Below are positions 474 through 13,470 of a DNA stretch of 64,000 bases, one piece after another. This DNA is from Sphingomonas sp. ATCC 31555 (GTDB lineage: Bacteria; Pseudomonadota; Alphaproteobacteria; Sphingomonadales; Sphingomonadaceae): the NCBI RefSeq assembly GCF_000282895.1, contig NZ_ALBQ01000011.1:343114-407113 (forward strand). The letters run 5' to 3'. Each line of letters begins with the position of its first letter. Positions within the stretch are counted from its first letter, which is position 1. The position numbers were made by a program, and so were the translations under genes. The notes under the pieces were generated by a model. That model had not been told where the DNA came from and made no database searches. It worked only from the letters and a program-made list of their open reading frames with translations.

Positions 474-2786
474 ATGGACGACCTGTTGCAGGACTTCATC
501 GCAGAGACGCGCGAGACGCTGGAAGCGCTCTCGGGTGAAATCGTCGCGTGGGAGGCCCATCCCGACGATCGCGCGCGCCTCGATGCGATTTTTCGCTTCG
601 TTCACACGGTGAAGGGAAGCTGCGGCTTTCTGGACTTGCCGCGGCTGGAGCGGCTGGCGCACGCGGCGGAAGACGCGCTGGCGCAGGTGCGCGACGGGAT
701 TCGTACGCCGGATCGTGCGCTGGTCAACGCGGTGCTCGCGGTGGTCGACAGGATCGGCGAAATCGTGGAGGCGATCGATGCCGGCCATGCGCTCGATCAT
801 GGGGGCGAGGATCTTCTGATCGCGGCGCTTGCTGAGGGATCGCAGCAGGTCGCCGCCGTTGCCACCATGGCCGGCCCGCGCGCGCCGTCTCGCAGCGTTC
901 GCCTCAATGTCGATCTGCTCGATCGCATGATGGGCGGCATGTCCGAAATGGTGCTGGCGCGCAACGAACTGGCGCGGCGGCTGCGGATGGCGCCGATCGA
1001 TCCTGCGGTGGAAGCGGCGCTGGAGCGGCTGTCGCTCACTGTAGGAGAGATGCGCGACACGGTGATGCGCACCCGCATGCAGAAGATCGATGCGCTGTTC
1101 TCGCCGCTGCCGCGCATGGTGCGCGACATCGCTGCGACGCTCGGCCGATCGGTGACGCTTCAGATCGAAGGATCGGACGTCGAACTCGACCGCGAGATGA
1201 TCGAGGTGCTGCGCGATCCTCTGGTGCACATCATCCGCAACGCGATCGATCACGGCATCGAGGCGCCGGGCGATCGGCGCGCTGCCGGCAAGCGGGAGGC
1301 GGGCCGACTGACCGTCGCTGCACGCCAGTCGGGCAACCAGATTATCGTCGAAATTGCCGATGACGGGCGCGGGGTGGATGTCGATCGGCTAATTGCCAAG
1401 CTGGCCGCGATCGGCGTCCGCCCCGAGCGCGAGCTGCGCGCCCTGCCGTTGCACGCGCAACTTGAACTGATGTTTCATCCGGGTCTGTCCAGCCGGGACA
1501 GCGTGTCCGAAGTGAGCGGTCGCGGTGTCGGGATGGATGTCGTCAAGTCCAGCGTCGACCAGATTGGCGGACGCATCGAACTGGACAATCGCCCCGGTCA
1601 GGGGCTGCGCATCGCCATCCGGGTGCCGCTGACGCTCTCGATCATGTCAGCGATTATCGTGGGGGTCGGGAATCAGCGGTTCGCCATCCCGCGCCAGTCG
1701 ATCGAGGAAATCGTCGCGGCACGCGGCCACGCGATCCGCATCGACGTGCTGGGCGACACGCCGATCGTCACGGTGCGCGAGCGTCGGATGCCGCTGCTCG
1801 ACCTGGCCGAACTGCTCGACCTGCCGCAGCGGGCGGCGTCCGATGCCGCGAAGATGCTGGTGATCGTCGCCGCCGGCGCGGGCAGCTACGCGCTCGTCGT
1901 CGATCATGTGATCGACAATGAGGAACTGGTGATCAAGCCAGCCTCGCCCGCGGTGATGGCGACGGGCATCTATGCCGGGCAGACTCTGCCGGATTCCGGG
2001 CTGCCGATGCTGCTGCTCGATAGTGGTGGCATGGCGCGGGTTGCGGGCCTGGATTTCACGCGCGATCTGGACGAGGCGTTCGGCGCGGAGCCGGCTGAGC
2101 CGGAGGCGCCCGGGCTGGCGGCCTTGCTCTTCCGCGATCTCGATGGCGCGCGCCGGGCGGTGCCGCTCTCCGCCGTCGACCGCGTGGAGCAGGTGGCGGC
2201 AAGCCAGGTGTGTCACGCTGCGGGCGCCTATCGGCTGACGGTGGACGACCGGATCCTGCCGTTGGCGATGCAGGGCTCGATCCAGGGTCGCGCGCATTTC
2301 GGCGTGCTGCGGTTGAAGGACGAGGACGTCGAAGTCACCTACGCCATCGACGAGGCGCTCGACATCATTACCGTGGCGGCCGATTTCGTGCCGGCGCGCG
2401 TGCCCGGGCGCGCGGCCGGGGTCGCGCTGGTTGACGGCGAACTTGTCGAAATTTTAGACGTCCTCTGGATATTCGACACCCACGCCGACCGGGTGGCGGC
2501 GAAGGACGCGCCTTTGTGCCTTATCGCCGGCGACAAGGATGGCTGGATGGCGACGTTCGTCCGGCCGTTGCTGGAAACCGCGGGATATCGAGTGGCCACC
2601 ACCCTCGAAGCGGACGACACGCCTGCAGTGATCCTGTCCGAAGATGCTGCCGATCTTCCGGCCGGCAGCGCGCCGGTCGTGCGGCTGCGGCGCAAGCGTC
2701 AGGCGGAAGCGGGGGACGAAAGCGTGTACCGCTATGATCGCGCCGGACTGCTGTTTGCGCTCGAAGCCCGCGTGGGAGCGCGATGA
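474..2786 (+). CDS. cheA: Chemotaxis histidine kinase CheA with extra C-terminal domains
   Basis: CheA is the cytoplasmic kinase that phosphorylates CheY and CheB under control of receptor-CheW arrays. The N-terminal Hpt domain carries the phosphoryl-accepting His44 in 'FVHTVKGS'. The P2 domain appears absent, because a dimerisation segment starts near residue 140. The ATPase domain shows the N box 'RNAIDHG' (about 253), 'DDGRGV' and 'GRGVGMDVV'. A CheW-like regulatory domain follows from about 385. Residues 540-665 look like a second CheW-like domain, and the last 90 residues resemble a receiver without its acidic pocket. At 770 residues it is longer than the roughly 650 usual for CheA. It overlaps cheW by four bases. 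Confidence 0.93.
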   Translation: MDDLLQDFIAETRETLEALSGEIVAWEAHPDDRARLDAIFRFVHTVKGSCGFLDLPRLERLAHAAEDALAQVRDGIRTPDRALVNAVLAVVDRIGEIVEAIDAGHALDHGGEDLLIAALAEGSQQVAAVATMAGPRAPSRSVRLNVDLLDRMMGGMSEMVLARNELARRLRMAPIDPAVEAALERLSLTVGEMRDTVMRTRMQKIDALFSPLPRMVRDIAATLGRSVTLQIEGSDVELDREMIEVLRDPLVHIIRNAIDHGIEAPGDRRAAGKREAGRLTVAARQSGNQIIVEIADDGRGVDVDRLIAKLAAIGVRPERELRALPLHAQLELMFHPGLSSRDSVSEVSGRGVGMDVVKSSVDQIGGRIELDNRPGQGLRIAIRVPLTLSIMSAIIVGVGNQRFAIPRQSIEEIVAARGHAIRIDVLGDTPIVTVRERRMPLLDLAELLDLPQRAASDAAKMLVIVAAGAGSYALVVDHVIDNEELVIKPASPAVMATGIYAGQTLPDSGLPMLLLDSGGMARVAGLDFTRDLDEAFGAEPAEPEAPGLAALLFRDLDGARRAVPLSAVDRVEQVAASQVCHAAGAYRLTVDDRILPLAMQGSIQGRAHFGVLRLKDEDVEVTYAIDEALDIITVAADFVPARVPGRAAGVALVDGELVEILDVLWIFDTHADRVAAKDAPLCLIAGDKDGWMATFVRPLLETAGYRVATTLEADDTPAVILSEDAADLPAGSAPVVRLRRKRQAEAGDESVYRYDRAGLLFALEARVGAR

Positions 2787-8461: not shown

Positions 8462-8866
8462 CTACGCGTACCGCGCCGCGGTTTCGCGAATTAGGGCGAT
8501 CATGTTGGGGATGCCCTGGGTTCGGTTTGAGCTCAGCTGATTTTTGAGGTCGAATGGAGCGAGCGCGGCTTCAATGTCGGTCGCCTGTATCTCGGCCGGG
8601 GTGTGGTCCTGCACCGTCAGCAGCACCAGCGCAATGATGCCCTTGGTGATCGCCGCGTTGGAGTCCGCCAGGAAGTGGAGCCGGCCATCCTCTAGCCGGG
8701 TGGGATAGACCCATACTGAGGCCGAACAGCCCCGCACCAGCGTCGCGTCGGTCTTAAGGGGTACGGGCATGTCCTCGAGCCCTTTGCCGAGCTCGATCAG
8801 CAAGCGATAGCGATCGTCGGCGTCTAAAAACCCGTATTCTTCTTGGAGATCGGCGAGGCTGGTCAT
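8462..8866 (-). CDS. sufE: Cysteine desulfuration protein SufE
   Basis: SufE accepts persulfide sulfur from a cysteine desulfurase and passes it to the SufBCD scaffold. The acceptor cysteine is visible in 'VRGCSASVWV', and the family pattern 'LLIELGKGLEDMP' lies before it. The protein has about 134 residues, as expected. I prefer the ATG at 8866 ('MTSLADLQ') over the GTG six bases earlier. It lies at the end of the psp run on the same strand, with a 45-base gap, so read-through transcription is possible. Confidence 0.9.
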   Translation of the reverse strand: MTSLADLQEEYGFLDADDRYRLLIELGKGLEDMPVPLKTDATLVRGCSASVWVYPTRLEDGRLHFLADSNAAITKGIIALVLLTVQDHTPAEIQATDIEAALAPFDLKNQLSSNRTQGIPNMIALIRETAARYA

Positions 8867-8911
8867 GGCCACTGCGCTAGCGGGCTCGCGCGGGATTCGC
8901 CAGCCTCGCCG

Positions 8912-9019
8912 CTATTTCGCGGGCGTCGCGCCGAAGCGCAGGCCGAGCCGGGGACGGGGCGTCCGCTCCGGGGTCGGAGTGGGGCGGGGCTCGGCCATCG
9001 GTTGGGTGGTAGCGCTCAC
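8912..9019 (-). CDS. Possible 35-residue Pro/Arg-rich protein
   Basis: A GTG at 9019 overlaps the stop of the preceding small psp-operon gene (GTGA), the usual sign of translational coupling. The peptide 'MSATTQPMAEPRPTPTPERT' and its Pro/Arg-rich continuation has no recognisable domain or membrane helix. Only the coupling and the compact operon layout support it. It could equally be a chance ORF in GC-rich DNA. Confidence 0.35.
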   Translation of the reverse strand: MSATTQPMAEPRPTPTPERTPRPRLGLRFGATPAK

Positions 9020-9264
9020 AGGTCCACCCCCGCGGCTATCGCTTCGAGCTTGCGGATGCGTTCCTTCAGATCCGCCAGTTCGATGCGCGAGGCGGCGTTG
9101 GGTATCGCCGTCGCCGCGACTTCCGGCCGGTGCAACTCGGCCAGTTCGCGATGCTTCAGCGCCAGCCAACTGCGCCAGCCCGACAGCGCCGCGCCGGTAA
9201 GCATCCCAAGGCCAGCCAGGCCGGACAAGGCGAGCGTGATATAGAGTTGAGGGTCGCTGGTCAT
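9016..9264 (-). CDS. Small membrane protein with PspB-like tail
   Basis: An 82-residue protein starting 'MTSDPQLYITLALSGLAGLG', one hydrophobic helix followed by a basic/acidic helix. The C-terminal 'LADLKERIRKLEAIAAGVDL' matches the heptad segment that ends PspB and neighbouring genes. It is the last clear member of the tandem set. The ATG at 9264 is preferred over an upstream one at 9285 because the hydrophobic helix begins right after it. The function is unknown; location implies envelope stress. Confidence 0.65.
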   Translation of the reverse strand: MTSDPQLYITLALSGLAGLGMLTGAALSGWRSWLALKHRELAELHRPEVAATAIPNAASRIELADLKERIRKLEAIAAGVDL

Positions 9265-9288
9265 GGTTCCTGCTCCCGAAAACATGGC

Positions 9289-9564
9289 TTAGATCCGGTT
9301 CTTGTCGCGCAGCTTCTCGATCTCGTGGTCGAGCCGCAGGCTGTTTTCATTGTCGGTGATGACGCGCTCGAGCACCTGGACGCGCTCCTTGAGGGCGCGG
9401 ATCTCGTCGCGTAGGCGGTCGGCCTCGAACTTCTCGGCCGGGTCTCGGCTCGCAAGCCCTTCAAGCCTGCCATCCCGGCCCTTGACCATGCCGTAGCGCG
9501 CCTGGAGAACCTTGCCGATCGTGATCACGACGATGATGGCCACGACCATTTCGAACGGGTTCAT
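9289..9564 (-). CDS. Small membrane protein with PspB/PspC-like tail
   Basis: A 91-residue protein with one N-terminal helix ('MVVAIIVVITIGKVLQ') and a charged, coiled-coil-forming C-terminal half. The tail 'LKERVQVLERVITD' then 'LDHEIEKLRDKN' is the clearest copy of the module shared by this operon. It probably sits in the inner membrane with the coil in the cytoplasm, as PspB does. No experimental function is known to me for this type. Confidence 0.75.
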   Translation of the reverse strand: MNPFEMVVAIIVVITIGKVLQARYGMVKGRDGRLEGLASRDPAEKFEADRLRDEIRALKERVQVLERVITDNENSLRLDHEIEKLRDKNRI

Positions 9565-9599
9565 TGCACCTTACTCCCCTAGTCGGCGCACGTGGCGCC

Positions 9600-9722
9600 T
9601 CAATTCCCTGCTTGCGATGCCTGGGCGGCGCGCAGGGCGCGGCGGCGGGGGCGATCGCGGCTTTCAGCGAGGGCAATAGCTCCCCCGCACAGTGCGGCAA
9701 GCACTGCGAGCATGACAATCAT
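9600..9722 (-). CDS. 40-residue single-helix membrane peptide
   Basis: The peptide 'MIVMLAVLAALCGGAIALAE' continues with a strongly basic tail and ends in 'AAQASQAGN'. It has one membrane helix and a positive-inside C-terminus. An AAGGAA ribosome site lies seven bases upstream of the ATG at 9722, and it sits neatly between two operon members. Unlike its neighbours it lacks the coiled-coil tail. A longer frame extends upstream but overlaps the next gene and has no homology. Confidence 0.6.
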   Translation of the reverse strand: MIVMLAVLAALCGGAIALAESRDRPRRRALRAAQASQAGN

Positions 9723-9760
9723 CGAAATTTCCTTGCTTAGAAGAAGGTGGGAACGTTTCT

Positions 9761-10027
9761 TCAGTTCAGCGGCGCGTCGCGCAGCTTCTCGATCTCTTCG
9801 GCGAGGCCCATGCCACGGTCGGTGAGGATCCGCTCGAGCACCTGGACCCGCTGTTCCAGCCGCGCCGTCTGGGCGGCGTATTGGGCAGCCTTTTCCGCGG
9901 TCATCTGGGCTTCGATTTCCATGCGGCGCTCCCACAGCTTGAACAGCGGGCGGAAGAAGACACCGCCGATGATCGCTACCAGGCCGCAGCTGATGCCGAG
10001 AATGGGGATCAGGATCGGGGAAAGCAT
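9761..10027 (-). CDS. Small membrane protein with PspB/PspC-like tail
   Basis: An 88-residue protein starting with a long hydrophobic helix ('ILIPILGISCGLVAIIGGVF'), then a helical 'RRMEIEAQMTAEKAAQYAAQ' segment. The tail 'LEQRVQVLERILTD' followed by 'LAEEIEKLRD' is almost the same as that of the 91-residue paralogue two genes downstream. It is the third PspB-like gene after pspC. Probable inner-membrane envelope-stress component; the specific role is unknown. Confidence 0.75.
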   Translation of the reverse strand: MLSPILIPILGISCGLVAIIGGVFFRPLFKLWERRMEIEAQMTAEKAAQYAAQTARLEQRVQVLERILTDRGMGLAEEIEKLRDAPLN

Positions 10028-10041
10028 GGTTTGCGTTCCTT

Positions 10042-10371
10042 TCAGTTCGAGCGGGTGCGGAGCGCTTCGATCTCGCGATCGAGCAGGTGCGCGCCGCCGG
10101 TCACGATGCGTTCGACATTGGCCAGCCGATCCTTGACCGAGCCGAGCTCGGCGCGCAGCTGGGCGTTTTCCTGGCTGAGCAGCTTGATCCGCTCGATCGC
10201 CTCGTCATCTCGCTTGGGATAGACGGCTTTGCCCCAGCTATTTTCCAGCGGGTAGCCGTTCTTGATCCGCAGCCAAGTGGTGAACAGCCAGCCTATCGTG
10301 CCCAGAAAACCCAGGCCAATTCCCGCCAGGATGATCCAAGGAAGGAAGGGGGCGAGTTGCAGTTCGATCAT
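10042..10371 (-). CDS. Small membrane protein with PspB/PspC-like tail
   Basis: A 109-residue protein with an N-terminal helix ('FLPWIILAGIGLGFLGTIGW') and a linker 'LRIKNGYPLENSWGKAVYPK'. The linker resembles that of the 97-residue gene upstream ('IRAKHGYSI'), so the two are probably duplicates. The coiled-coil C-terminus carries 'VKDRLANVERIVTG' and 'LDREIEALRTR'. It lies 17 bases after its upstream neighbour in the operon. Confidence 0.75.
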   Translation of the reverse strand: MIELQLAPFLPWIILAGIGLGFLGTIGWLFTTWLRIKNGYPLENSWGKAVYPKRDDEAIERIKLLSQENAQLRAELGSVKDRLANVERIVTGGAHLLDREIEALRTRSN

Positions 10372-10388
10372 GGTGTGTCTCCCTGAAC

Positions 10389-10682
10389 TCAGCGCAGCGC
10401 GTCGATAGCGCGGGCGGTGCGCTCGGCGGGTTCGGTGGCGATCCGCTCGAGCACGGCGATCCGGTCTTCCAGCCGGCTGATCTGGCCCGCGAGCCGTTCG
10501 TTCTCGGCTACCAGCAGGGCGATCTTGCGGGCGGCATCCGGATCGGCCTTGTCGATGTTCGCCCCGAAATCGTCGCTGATCGAATAGCCGTGCTTGGCAC
10601 GGATCCAGTTGTTCACGACCCAGCCAATGGTCGAGATCGCGACGATGGCGATCACGAAGCCGGGGCCACTCAACCAGTTCAT
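10389..10682 (-). CDS. Small membrane protein with PspB/PspC-like tail
   Basis: A 97-residue protein. The N-terminal helix 'FVIAIVAISTIGWVVNNWIR' is followed by 'AKHGYSISDDFG', an acidic stretch, and a heptad region 'VAENERLAGQISRLEDRIAV' that leads into 'LERIATEP' and 'ARAIDALR'. This is the first extra gene after pspC and shares its linker with the 109-residue gene. The sequence suggests one membrane helix and a cytoplasmic coil. Function is inferred only from context. Confidence 0.75.
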   Translation of the reverse strand: MNWLSGPGFVIAIVAISTIGWVVNNWIRAKHGYSISDDFGANIDKADPDAARKIALLVAENERLAGQISRLEDRIAVLERIATEPAERTARAIDALR

Positions 10683-10712
10683 TGTCTGCCTCCCAGTTGA
10701 CTGCCGGCGCGG

Positions 10713-11084
10713 TTAGCGCAGGCTGTCTATTTCGTCAGCGAGCCGGGTGTTGCGGCTCGTGTAGAACATCTCGATGTCAGCCAGCCGACGATCGATGTCG
10801 CGAAACTTCGAGCGGACCTCCGCAGTCGAGCGCTTCGGGCTCGACCGCACGCCCTGCCAGAAGCGTTCGTCTTCCGGCGTGTCGTAGAGGCCTACGGGCT
10901 TGGGGTTCGCGATCCAGGCGATCACGAAGTAGCCGAGGGCGACCCAGCCGGTGGCGATGGTGAGCAGCACGGTGGCCACCCGGATCCAGGTGACATCGAT
11001 CCCGGTATAATCGGCCAAGCCAGCGCAGACGCCCATGAACTTGCGGTTTTGTCTGTCGAGGTAGAATTTCGTACGAGCGGACAT
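10713..11084 (-). CDS. pspC: Phage shock protein C
   Basis: A 123-residue PspC. The core 'KFMGVCAGLADYTGIDVTWI' is the family signature, followed by a membrane helix 'VATVLLTIATGWVALGYFVI'. The C-terminus 'FRDIDRRLADIEMFYTSRNT' then 'RLADEIDSLR' corresponds to the end of enterobacterial PspC. PspC is an inner-membrane sensor that with PspB relieves PspA inhibition of PspF. The start lies one base after the pspB stop, and the C-terminal module recurs in the small genes downstream. Confidence 0.92.
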   Translation of the reverse strand: MSARTKFYLDRQNRKFMGVCAGLADYTGIDVTWIRVATVLLTIATGWVALGYFVIAWIANPKPVGLYDTPEDERFWQGVRSSPKRSTAEVRSKFRDIDRRLADIEMFYTSRNTRLADEIDSLR

Positions 11085-11085
11085 C

Positions 11086-11358
11086 TCAGTTCCTCCGTGA
11101 AGGATCGTAAGGAGCCTGTTCGGGGCGTTGCGCCGAGAGCGGGCGATAGTCGGGATTGTCGGCGGCGATGATCCGTTCGACCGTGTTTAGCCGGTCTTCC
11201 AGCATACGCGCCGTACGATACAGGTCATCGAGCAGGTTCTCATCTTCCCGGGTTATCGTCCCGGCCTGCTTCCACTTGGTGACATAGTGGAAGACCAGCC
11301 AGGGCAGTCCGATAAAGAGGATGGCGCAGACGAGGACCGGAATGAGAACCTCTTCCAC
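11086..11358 (-). CDS. pspB: Phage shock protein B
   Basis: A 90-residue PspB with an N-terminal membrane helix ('VLIPVLVCAILFIGLPWLVF') and a cytoplasmic helix containing 'LLDDLYRTARMLEDRLNTVE' and 'RIIAADNPDYRPL'. The last motif corresponds to the 'LESILDAEHPNWR' ending of enterobacterial PspB. It works with PspC at the inner membrane as a sensor of envelope damage. The gene begins three bases after the pspA stop. Confidence 0.9.
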   Translation of the reverse strand: MEEVLIPVLVCAILFIGLPWLVFHYVTKWKQAGTITREDENLLDDLYRTARMLEDRLNTVERIIAADNPDYRPLSAQRPEQAPYDPSRRN

Positions 11359-11361
11359 CGA

Positions 11362-12030
11362 TTATACTCCCTTACTCAGCCGCGCCTTGAGCGCTTCGAG
11401 TTCGGCGTCGACCTTCTCCGACGAACGGAGCTCGGCGATTTCCTCTTCAAGCGTCTTCGGGTTGCCGCCCAGACCCATCGCATCGGCACGACCTTCGGCC
11501 AGGTCGACGCGGCGTTCCAGGATGTCGAACCGCGAAAAGGCGTCCTGCATCTTCGCGCCGTTCGTCATTTCGCGCAACTTGGCGCGATTGTTGGCGCTTT
11601 CCAGTCGAGCGACGATCGAGTTCTGGCGCACCCGCGCCTCGCGTAGCTTGTTCTGCAGCTTGTTGATGTCCTCTTCCGAAGCGCGCAGCGCGTCGTCGAG
11701 CACAGCGATTTCCTGCTGCAGCTGGTCGCACATGTCAGCGGCCTTCTGTTTTTCAACCAGAGCGGCCTTGGCGAGATCCTCGCGATCTTTGGAAAGCGCC
11801 AGTTCGGCCTTTTCGGTCCAGCTTTCCTGAAGCTTTTCCAACTTGGCGATGTGGCGACGCATTTCCTTCTGGTCCGCAATGGTGCGGGCGGCACTGGCGC
11901 GAACCTCTACCAGCGTTTCTTCCATCTCGAGGATGATCATGCGGACCATCTTCGCCGGATCCTCGGCCTTGTCGAGCAGGTCGGTAACGTTGGCGGCGAT
12001 GATGTCGCGGGTTCGCGAAAAGATACCCAT
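11362..12030 (-). CDS. pspA: Phage shock protein A
   Basis: A 222-residue PspA/IM30 (ESCRT-III-like) protein. It begins with the amphipathic helix 'MGIFSRTRDIIAANVTDLLD', which binds stressed membranes, and continues as long coiled coils ('AEDPAKMVRMIILEMEETLV'). Free PspA inhibits the activator PspF, and assembled PspA stabilises damaged inner membrane. It is the first full-size gene of the operon, with its regulator divergent. Length and composition are normal. Confidence 0.95.
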   Translation of the reverse strand: MGIFSRTRDIIAANVTDLLDKAEDPAKMVRMIILEMEETLVEVRASAARTIADQKEMRRHIAKLEKLQESWTEKAELALSKDREDLAKAALVEKQKAADMCDQLQQEIAVLDDALRASEEDINKLQNKLREARVRQNSIVARLESANNRAKLREMTNGAKMQDAFSRFDILERRVDLAEGRADAMGLGGNPKTLEEEIAELRSSEKVDAELEALKARLSKGV

Positions 12031-12059
12031 GATGTGCGCTCCTTCGTGTTTTTGTGGGT

Positions 12060-12122
12060 GCCGCCGGAAGGGATGGGGGCCCTTCCGGCGGCCCCGGCAT
12101 CCCGAGGGATGGGATGCCGGGG
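12060..12122. repeat. GC-rich stem-loop between the leader ORF and pspA
   Basis: GCCGCCGGAAGG at 12060-12071 faces CCTTCCGGCGGC at 12082-12093, giving a perfect 12-base stem with a 10-base loop. A second stem, CCCCGGCATCCC against GGGATGCCGGGG, lies at 12093-12122. Both fall within the psp transcript upstream of pspA. They could attenuate or process the message between the leader peptide and pspA. No T-run follows on the minus strand, so a strong terminator is unlikely. Confidence 0.65.
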
Positions 12123-12139
12123 AGACCTCGTGTGCCGCC

Positions 12140-12247
12140 TCAGGCGATCGCCGGGGCCACCGCGCCTGCCATCAGAACGGCGCTGGCAAGGAAGGCGAGG
12201 GAAACCGCCAGGAAGGCGTTGCGGAGGGTGTTGATCTGGTTGGTCAT
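12140..12247 (-). CDS. 35-residue hydrophobic leader peptide of the psp operon
   Basis: The ORF 'MTNQINTLRNAFLAVSLAFL' continues 'ASAVLMAGAVAPAIA' and stops 109 bases before pspA. It could be one membrane helix or a cleavable signal-like peptide. The ATG at 12247 follows AGGAA at good spacing and lies about 54 bases downstream of the predicted sigma-54 transcription start, so it should be the first ORF on the transcript. It is too short to recognise by homology. A GC-rich palindrome follows it (12060-12120). Confidence 0.6.
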   Translation of the reverse strand: MTNQINTLRNAFLAVSLAFLASAVLMAGAVAPAIA

Positions 12248-12311: not shown

Positions 12312-12327
12312 TGCAGGAGGCGTGCCA
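12312..12327 (-). promoter_or_regulatory. Sigma-54 promoter of the psp operon
   Basis: On the minus strand the sequence is TGGCACG-N4-CTGCA, against the sigma-54 consensus TGGCACG-N4-TTGCA. Only one base differs, and the GG and GC dinucleotides have the exact required spacing. The predicted start is near 12301, leaving a leader of about 54 bases before the first ORF. It fits a psp operon beside a PspF-type activator. Confidence 0.85.
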
Positions 12328-12429: not shown

Positions 12430-13470
12430 ATGGACCGCACGACCCAAGTTATCGGAGAATCTTCCGCGTTTTTGGATGCGCTGGAACGCGCAAGCCGCGC
12501 GGCGCAGCTTGACCGCCCTGTGCTGGTGATCGGCGAGCGCGGGACCGGCAAGGAACTCGTCGCAGAACGTCTCCACCGCCTCAGCCCGCGCTGGGATCAG
12601 CCGCTAGTAACAATGAACTGCGCAGCGCTCCCCGAAACGCTGATCGAAGCCGAACTGTTCGGCCATGAGGCCGGTGCGTTCACCGGCGCTACGAAGGCAC
12701 GGACCGGGCGGTTCGAAGAAGCCGACGGCGGCACGCTGTTCCTCGACGAACTCGGCACTCTTTCCATGGGGGCGCAAGAGCGACTCCTGCGCGCAGTGGA
12801 ATATGGCGAGGTGACACGGATCGGATCCTCGCGCCCGATCCGCGTCGACGTGCGGATCGTTGGCGCTACCAATGAGAACCTGCCGCACCGGGTGGAAAAG
12901 GGGACTTTCCGCGCCGATCTTCTCGATCGCCTCAGTTTCGAGGTCGTCACTCTGCCGCCGCTGCGGCATCGTGGCGGCGATGTGGAGGTGCTCGCTGAAT
13001 TCTACGGGCGGCGCATGGCTTCCGAGCTGGGGTGGCAGGATTGGCCCGGATGGGGACCGAACGCGCTCGATGCGCTGCTTTCCTATGACTGGCCAGGCAA
13101 TGTCCGGGAACTGCGCAATGTCGTAGAGCGCGCAGTGTATCGCTGGGAGCAGGGTGGGCCGATCGATCGGATCGAAATCGACCCATTCGCCTCGCCCTAT
13201 CGGCCGCGGCCCATGGCGTCGTCGATGAGCCCGGTGGAAAAACCGGCCGAGGCGGCAGTGCCTGCCGCACCTGCACCGACAATGTCGGAGCCGGCGGAGT
13301 TGAGCGGCGATTTCAAGACGCGCGTGGCGCGGTTTGAGAAGCAGTTATTGTCCCAAGCGCTGGCCGAGCATCGCTTCAACCAGCGCGCGACAGCCGAGGC
13401 GCTGGGGCTTACCTATGATCAGCTGCGGCACGCACTGCGACGGCACGATTTGCTGGGCGCCGGAGGATAG
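12430..13470 (+). CDS. pspF: Sigma-54 activator PspF
   Basis: A 346-residue AAA+ activator without an N-terminal sensory domain, which is diagnostic of PspF, the regulator held off by PspA. Walker A is 'GERGTGKE' (35-42). The sigma-54 contact loop is 'GAFTGA' (82-87). Walker B lies in 'GGTLFLDELG'. A Pro/Ala-rich linker (about 250-290) leads to a Fis-type helix-turn-helix ('QALAEHRFNQRATAEALGLT'). It is divergent from the psp operon, with the promoter and inverted repeat between them. Confidence 0.93.
   Translation: MDRTTQVIGESSAFLDALERASRAAQLDRPVLVIGERGTGKELVAERLHRLSPRWDQPLVTMNCAALPETLIEAELFGHEAGAFTGATKARTGRFEEADGGTLFLDELGTLSMGAQERLLRAVEYGEVTRIGSSRPIRVDVRIVGATNENLPHRVEKGTFRADLLDRLSFEVVTLPPLRHRGGDVEVLAEFYGRRMASELGWQDWPGWGPNALDALLSYDWPGNVRELRNVVERAVYRWEQGGPIDRIEIDPFASPYRPRPMASSMSPVEKPAEAAVPAAPAPTMSEPAELSGDFKTRVARFEKQLLSQALAEHRFNQRATAEALGLTYDQLRHALRRHDLLGAGG

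Follow-up and report, generated by a model that had tools for sequence, protein, structure and literature searches.

The minus strand of the DNA stretch analysed here (the window: 64,000 nucleotides (nt) of Sphingomonas sp. ATCC 31555, contig NZ_ALBQ01000011.1, to whose first letter all positions refer) carries a phage shock protein (Psp) operon in which pspA, pspB and pspC are followed by five further small genes, here termed X1 to X5. Four of the encoded proteins (X1-X4) end, according to profile comparisons, in a tail that is homologous to the C-terminus of PspC. An initial annotation, made from the letters alone, had listed the three psp genes, the five small genes and a gene for a 40-residue peptide (p40), and all of these are present on the minus strand. 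With a divergent pspF, a site resembling a sigma54 promoter, and pspA, pspB and pspC in this order, the locus has been recognised as a Psp operon. Its main elements are as follows, with lengths in amino acids (aa) and expectation values (E) of profile matches.

12430..13470, plus strand: pspF, divergent sigma54 activator (Pfam Sigma54_activat, E 1.8e-62, plus HTH_8)
12312..12327, minus strand: sigma54 promoter-like site TGGCACGCCTCCTGCA, 297 nt upstream of the pspA ATG, 10 of 11 consensus letters
11362..12030, minus strand: pspA, 222 aa (TIGR02977, E 1.3e-83, above cut-off)
11086..11358, minus strand: pspB, 90 aa, GTG start (PF06667, E 2.9e-25; TIGR02976, E 4.6e-21; both above cut-off)
10713..11084, minus strand: pspC, 123 aa (TIGR02978, E 3.8e-33, above cut-off)
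10389..10682, minus strand: X1, 97 aa, single predicted membrane helix, KHGYS linker, PspC-type tail
10042..10371, minus strand: X2, 109 aa, single predicted membrane helix, KNGYPLENSWG linker, PspC-type tail
9761..10027, minus strand: X3, 88 aa, single predicted membrane helix, PspC-type tail, matches to PspB and PspC models under cut-off
9289..9564, minus strand: X4, 91 aa, MNPFEMVV anchor, PspC-type tail
9016..9285, minus strand: X5, 82 aa with the ATG at 9264 as start (89 aa with 9285), single predicted membrane helix, ending in ADLKERIRKLEAIAAGVDL, closes the array

Read along the minus strand, the order is a mini open reading frame (mini-ORF), pspA, pspB, pspC, X1, X2, X3, p40, X4 and X5, then sufE, and the intergenic gaps from pspA through X5 measure 1-38 nt. 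All six terminator-like sites found between 8400 and 12700 lie on the plus strand and none on the minus strand, which, like the tight spacing, agrees with the predicted co-transcription of X1-X5 with pspA. For X5, the ATG at 9264 has by eye a better ribosome site than the first ATG. Each of the five proteins has one N-terminal hydrophobic helix, and a structure model of X2 consists of helix, loop and helix, the helices spanning residues 2-37 and 56-108 (mean predicted local distance difference test score 80, predicted template modelling score 0.33). Close counterparts have been found in Sphingomonas trueperi (X4, 96%) and S. pokkalii (X2, 93%), and among the best 120 matches of each list the homologues are mostly named hypothetical proteins.

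Since none of X1-X5 passed a Pfam or NCBIfam cut-off, 80 pspA loci of the host's family have been collected, hand-picked, roughly one for a genus, out of those 138 family genomes, of 149 in all, that have a PspA match (one genome gave two), and the downstream small genes have been assigned to pspB, pspC and X1-X5 by iterative hidden Markov models (HMMs), with X3 as a catch-all group and start codons chosen mechanically. A set of 87 loci adds to these six further family loci and the window. A single strong hydrophobic segment has been observed in 296 of the 308 X1-X5 proteins of the surveyed loci, and in 294 of these 296 the lysine and arginine count is higher C-terminal than N-terminal of the helix, so that a cytoplasmic tail is predicted for X1-X5. 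Sigma54-like sites scoring at least 9 and lying at most 400 nt before pspA occur in 51 of the 87 loci versus 1 of 87 shuffles.

The relation of the tails to PspC and PspB has been followed by several profile comparisons. An HMM built from the X1-X4 tails alone and run against 3,789 proteins and ORFs recovers, at E < 1, PspC in 78 of 80 cases, PspB in 76 of 79, X5 in 70 of 71 and PspA in 3 of 80; of 13 other survey ORFs below this limit, 12 are X, X5 or pspC frames missed or set aside in the assignment and one is unrelated (0.22), and the seven window ORFs reached at E < 1 all belong to the psp operon. Within the tail, the first half resembles a zipper. With the zipper-free second half alone, PspC is again found at E < 1 in 78 of 80 cases (64 below 0.01), as against 0 of 79 PspB, 0 of 72 X5 and 1 of 80 PspA; among 2,127 other ORFs this half yields seven at E < 1, and six of these are frames of X genes or pspC. 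Aligned by hhalign, PspC tails and X1-X4 reach a probability of 82-96% (E 5e-9 to 1e-5), PspB reaches 73-90% with X1 and X2, 34-75% with X3 and X4 and 8-55% with PspC, X5 reaches 91-92% with X4 and at most 51% with the others, and 13 PspA segments used as controls reach at most 42%. When the whole 4.05-Mb genome is searched with the X1-X4 tail profile, X1-X4 take the first four ranks (E 7e-20 to 7e-17) and PspC the fifth (0.002); behind them come a 940-aa frame from another part of the genome (0.0067), PspB in seventh place (0.13), a further frame (0.14) and, in ninth place, X5 (0.23). Based on the half-tail search, hhalign and this genome ranking, the tail of X1-X4 is assigned to that of PspC (residues 99-123, 10716-10790), of which PspB appears to share the first, zipper half only; X5 does not qualify as a bearer of a PspC-type C-terminal tail and seems to be linked mainly to X4.

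The idea, put forward in the initial annotation, that a single family of tails is borne by differing membrane anchors is thus borne out for X1-X4 by the profile searches and hhalign, and the opposite outcome named there, tails with no significant profile link to PspB or PspC, did not occur. Its further statement that PspB and PspC end in the same tail holds for PspC; PspB has the zipper half only, and the PspB-PspC profile link is weak. The motif given in the initial annotation needs amendment as well: the first part is present in X1-X4, with V instead of L at its start in X2, but X5 departs from it (LEAI instead of LERI) and is without the second half, PspC itself has IEMFY in place of the expected ER-[IV], and the second part, L-x2-EI-x2-LR, is found in X2-X4, with TARAIDALR in X1.

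In the suggested HMM check, PspC and PspB models match weakly at the tails of X2-X4 and the PspB models also at X1, always below cut-off and next to other sub-threshold coiled-coil matches, and X5 matches no PspC or PspB model of Pfam or NCBIfam; the PspC domain PF04024 has no match in X1-X5 at E up to 1. It is very improbable, in our judgement, that the tails resemble that of PspC by convergence, as leucine zippers of a generic kind borne by small membrane proteins which happen to follow pspC: the first tail half weakly matches designed and natural coiled coils among solved structures (best E 0.0049; PspC itself has no match there at E 0.1), but the zipper-free half still picks out PspC, the PspA segments score far lower, and linkage to psp recurs in other lineages. 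A generic coiled coil has been discarded as an explanation on the PspA controls of hhalign and the result for the zipper-free half.

Only slightly less improbable is that the X proteins are plain duplicates of PspB, as one line in section 17 of Ravi et al. 2024 (PMC11237479) would have it. That line, with AOL22920.1 as example, likewise concerns extra PspB-like genes of the operon, and it differs in that neither the section nor the passages of the main text that bear on the matter hold a tail family, a count or a link to PspC. PspB and the X proteins are indeed alike in being small, in sharing the operon and in combining one N-terminal helix with a zipper-like segment (weak in X5); X3 matches the PspB models under cut-off, and among the best 120 matches of X4 some UniRef entries are labelled 'Phage shock protein B'. 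However, X1-X5 either stay below the PspB cut-offs (TIGR02976, PF06667) or obtain no score, the best of them, X3, reaching 16.5 bits versus a cut-off of 25.6 (Pfam) and 16.3 versus 51.7 (NCBIfam), and the second tail half matches PspC and no PspB; on these two results PspB identity has been rejected. PspC (TIGR02978, PF04024) has in common with X1-X4 the operon, the location in the membrane and a tail with R-x4-E-x3-T and L-x2-EI-x2-LR, and differs from them in its PspC domain, in place of which X1-X4 have one predicted membrane helix.

Within the family the array is widespread. Extra tail genes number at least one in 86 and at least two in 81 of the 87 loci (median four, maximum eight in L056), a count from which four second pspA copies (L088, L089, L095, L096) have been excluded; L095 and L096 consist of pspA, pspC and X5. 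Among the 80 loci X1 is present in 35, X2 in 57, X3 in 56, X4 in 74 and X5 in 72, the array ends in X4-X5 in 67, and X5 is last in every one of the 70 loci in which it is accompanied by another X gene. Neighbouring genes lie at most 40 nt apart or overlap in 338 of 402 counted pairs (gaps of -60 to 400 nt). Presence and order are conserved in relatives, and the absent or scrambled arrangement that the initial annotation had named as the opposite outcome did not occur. Its proposal that the 97- and 109-residue genes arose by recent duplication has not survived: in a tree restricted to linker-bearing proteins, the X1 proteins and the X2 proteins fall into two separate groups, each spanning the sampled family genera (support 65 and 94, from few columns), and all 81 proteins in these rows have their best match in their own group. 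As these separate groups span the genera of the family, the duplication must be old.

Outside the family, tail genes stand alone or within the psp operons of other alpha- and gammaproteobacteria. A tail match has been found in 30 of 46 genomes of the order sample outside the family, 25 of which have one. The class sample holds true X genes in 4 of 240 genomes, three of them in the host's own family; two of its six matches have been discarded, one being PspC's own tail (L085) and one lying within a 441-aa protein (L086). Tail genes occur in 27 of the 299 genomes of the phylum sample, 14 of them outside the family, and all 27 have PspA, which is present in 95 of the 299 altogether; outside the family PspA is found in 14 of 14 tail-bearing genomes versus 82 of 286 overall (hypergeometric 1e-8, uncorrected for kinship, the 14 belonging to five families). 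A check of 36 genomes showed PspA and PspC together in each of the 32 that carry a tail gene; of the four without one, two have both and two neither. On plasmids a single match has been obtained, in a Sphingomonas record, with 42% identity.

Among the outside loci that were fetched are lone genes of 70-90 aa with varied neighbours. Eight hand-picked outside proteins, one of them (L113) from a psp operon, all match a PspC model (E at most 0.0075), and seven also match a PspB model (E at most 0.0092), all below cut-off; a Thalassotalea-type protein and its relatives are named hypothetical protein, phage shock protein B or phage shock protein C (best 120 matches). A pattern of X4 type drew 19 loci. 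In 12 of them, and in 7 of the 13 that bear no sphingomonad title, the stretch also contains pspA, and the gammaproteobacterium Salinibius halmophilus is included; at the Iodidimonas muriae locus there is no pspA within the stretch. The order pspA-X-pspB-pspC occurs in the gammaproteobacterial L150 and L151, and an array outside the sphingomonads is seen in a Hyphomonas metagenome-assembled genome (L146), whose psp operon unites three pspB, pspC and six tail genes, one of the six proteins having by eye no obvious membrane helix. Co-variation of the tails with PspC looked good by eye in L150 and not in L104, and none is claimed. In L104, L107 and L113 the tail gene lies downstream of pspA-pspB-pspC and a short second pspC. 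This second pspC, placed between pspC and the tail gene, encodes 78-84 aa and has no tail. A 129-aa protein with N-terminal cysteine pairs (Zn-ribbon-like by eye) and an X-type tail is encoded away from psp in genome G079 (L136, 4228-4617, plus strand).

The arrangement of the genes, the pattern of hydrophobic helices, the presence of a PspC-type tail, the conservation in the family and the occurrence in PspA genomes only (phylum sample) have been shown; to these we add the following interpretation, with a probability of roughly 0.55: X1-X4 would be single-pass inner-membrane proteins with a PspC-type tail and no PspC domain that provide extra docking sites for PspA and are probably co-produced with it on induction. 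A docking role is likely because their tail is homologous to that of PspC, whose cytoplasmic C-terminus, as passages of PMC5596341 report, binds PspA in Yersinia. Likewise, a segment of E. coli PspC that contains the zipper motif (residues 69-119) interacts with PspA and turns on psp upon co-expression of PspB, according to passages of PMC3068692. In the 'on' state derived from these papers, the cytoplasmic tail of PspC would bind PspA and free PspF; each X protein would tether PspA to the membrane via a different anchor, and PspA so held could keep the response on or be spread over different membrane sites or stresses. The half-tail of X5 would bind other tails rather than PspA, which is the least supported step.

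Several observations weigh against this interpretation. The single links are weak, with a median E of the tail HMM of 0.027 for PspC (0.034 for PspB) and a best PspC-model E across X1-X5 of 0.0098. X1-X4 genes are missing from 3 of the 87 loci, the second copies L088 and L089 hold pspA and pspC only, and two genomes of the order sample have PspA and PspC yet no tail gene. In many relatives lone tail genes lie away from psp, and a strict sigma54 site within up to 350 nt upstream of them is absent in 35 of 36 loci and found in one, so that they are not obviously controlled by PspF. Finally, the soluble tail fragment of E. coli PspC acted with PspB co-expressed, in the part of PMC3068692 concerned. 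It is possible, although we consider it unlikely, that the tails bind each other together with PspB and PspC, and not PspA, and that X1-X5, in the manner of PspB, tune PspC or silence it as members of an enlarged PspBC sensor complex. The zipper-like first half is also present in PspB and, more weakly, in X5, and the cytoplasmic domains of PspB and PspC interact and thereby silence the response, according to the title of Flores-Kim and Darwin 2016; against such a complex stand the PspC-specific second half, which X1-X4 have and PspB is missing, and the location of some tail genes far from pspBC.

Under the docking interpretation, we tentatively propose, at somewhat less than even confidence, that the PspC tail may be a portable docking tag for PspA, a bacterial protein of the endosomal sorting complex required for transport III (ESCRT-III) type, carried by a proteobacterial family of small anchors which sphingomonads would have amplified, within the operon, to a set directing PspA to several membrane sites or stresses. 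The Psp switch is hard to dissect because PspC unites stress sensing, PspB contact and PspA binding in one molecule. The tail has been found many times apart from the PspC domain, and, if the proposal is true, these proteins would offer short natural constructs for the function of the tail alone and give a name to a family whose listed homologues are mostly hypothetical proteins.

PspD and PspG of enterobacteria are small accessory proteins within the Psp regulon, as the X proteins would be, and we know of no X-type tail in them. PspB, PspC and PspD are the usual proteobacterial companions of PspA in the passages of a 2022 census (PMC9239133). Within the literature covered by our searches, outside whose scope lay most subscription papers and all preprints, no sphingomonad psp array and no treatment of its paralogs or tails has been found; to the extent of these searches, neither the array nor the PspC-tail family has been described beyond the one line on 'PspB duplicates'. 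Zymomonas is a sphingomonad. Its pspA, pspB and pspC are up under ethanol stress (PMC3495753) and on xylose (PMC8645129), and X genes are not named in the relevant passages of either paper.

Two further small elements lie in the operon:

12140..12247, minus strand: mini-ORF, 35 aa, hydrophobic, first ORF of the operon
9600..9722, minus strand: p40, peptide of 40 aa, predicted to lie in the membrane, tail absent

Homologues of p40 have been detected in L156, L157, L158 and L148 (tblastn E 2e-12 to 3e-4), with the common motif E-x2-DRP-x-RR, and none among the 80 survey loci (phmmer E 1e-5). Another ORF of 35 aa, at 8912-9019, is probably no gene, as it has been seen only in the window and doubtfully in L073 among 78 loci with a recognisable X5 end. 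The mini-ORF, signal-peptide-like, is situated between the sigma54-like site and pspA; similar ones occur in 56 of 98 loci, as against 4 of 98 when the reverse strand is read and 0.2% in shuffled sequences, by eye in two sequence types, many ending in LA. In the same place before pspA, L092, guessed to be Zymomonas-like, encodes a 170-aa exported-type protein (994-1506, plus strand), and a link of the mini-ORF to ZMO1062, the co-induced gene called pspD before Zymomonas pspA, has been dropped for this reason. At the other end of the operon, sufE (8462-8872, minus strand) adjoins it in the window, and a sufE-like ORF (by eye) does likewise in the distant L092 (3248-3685).

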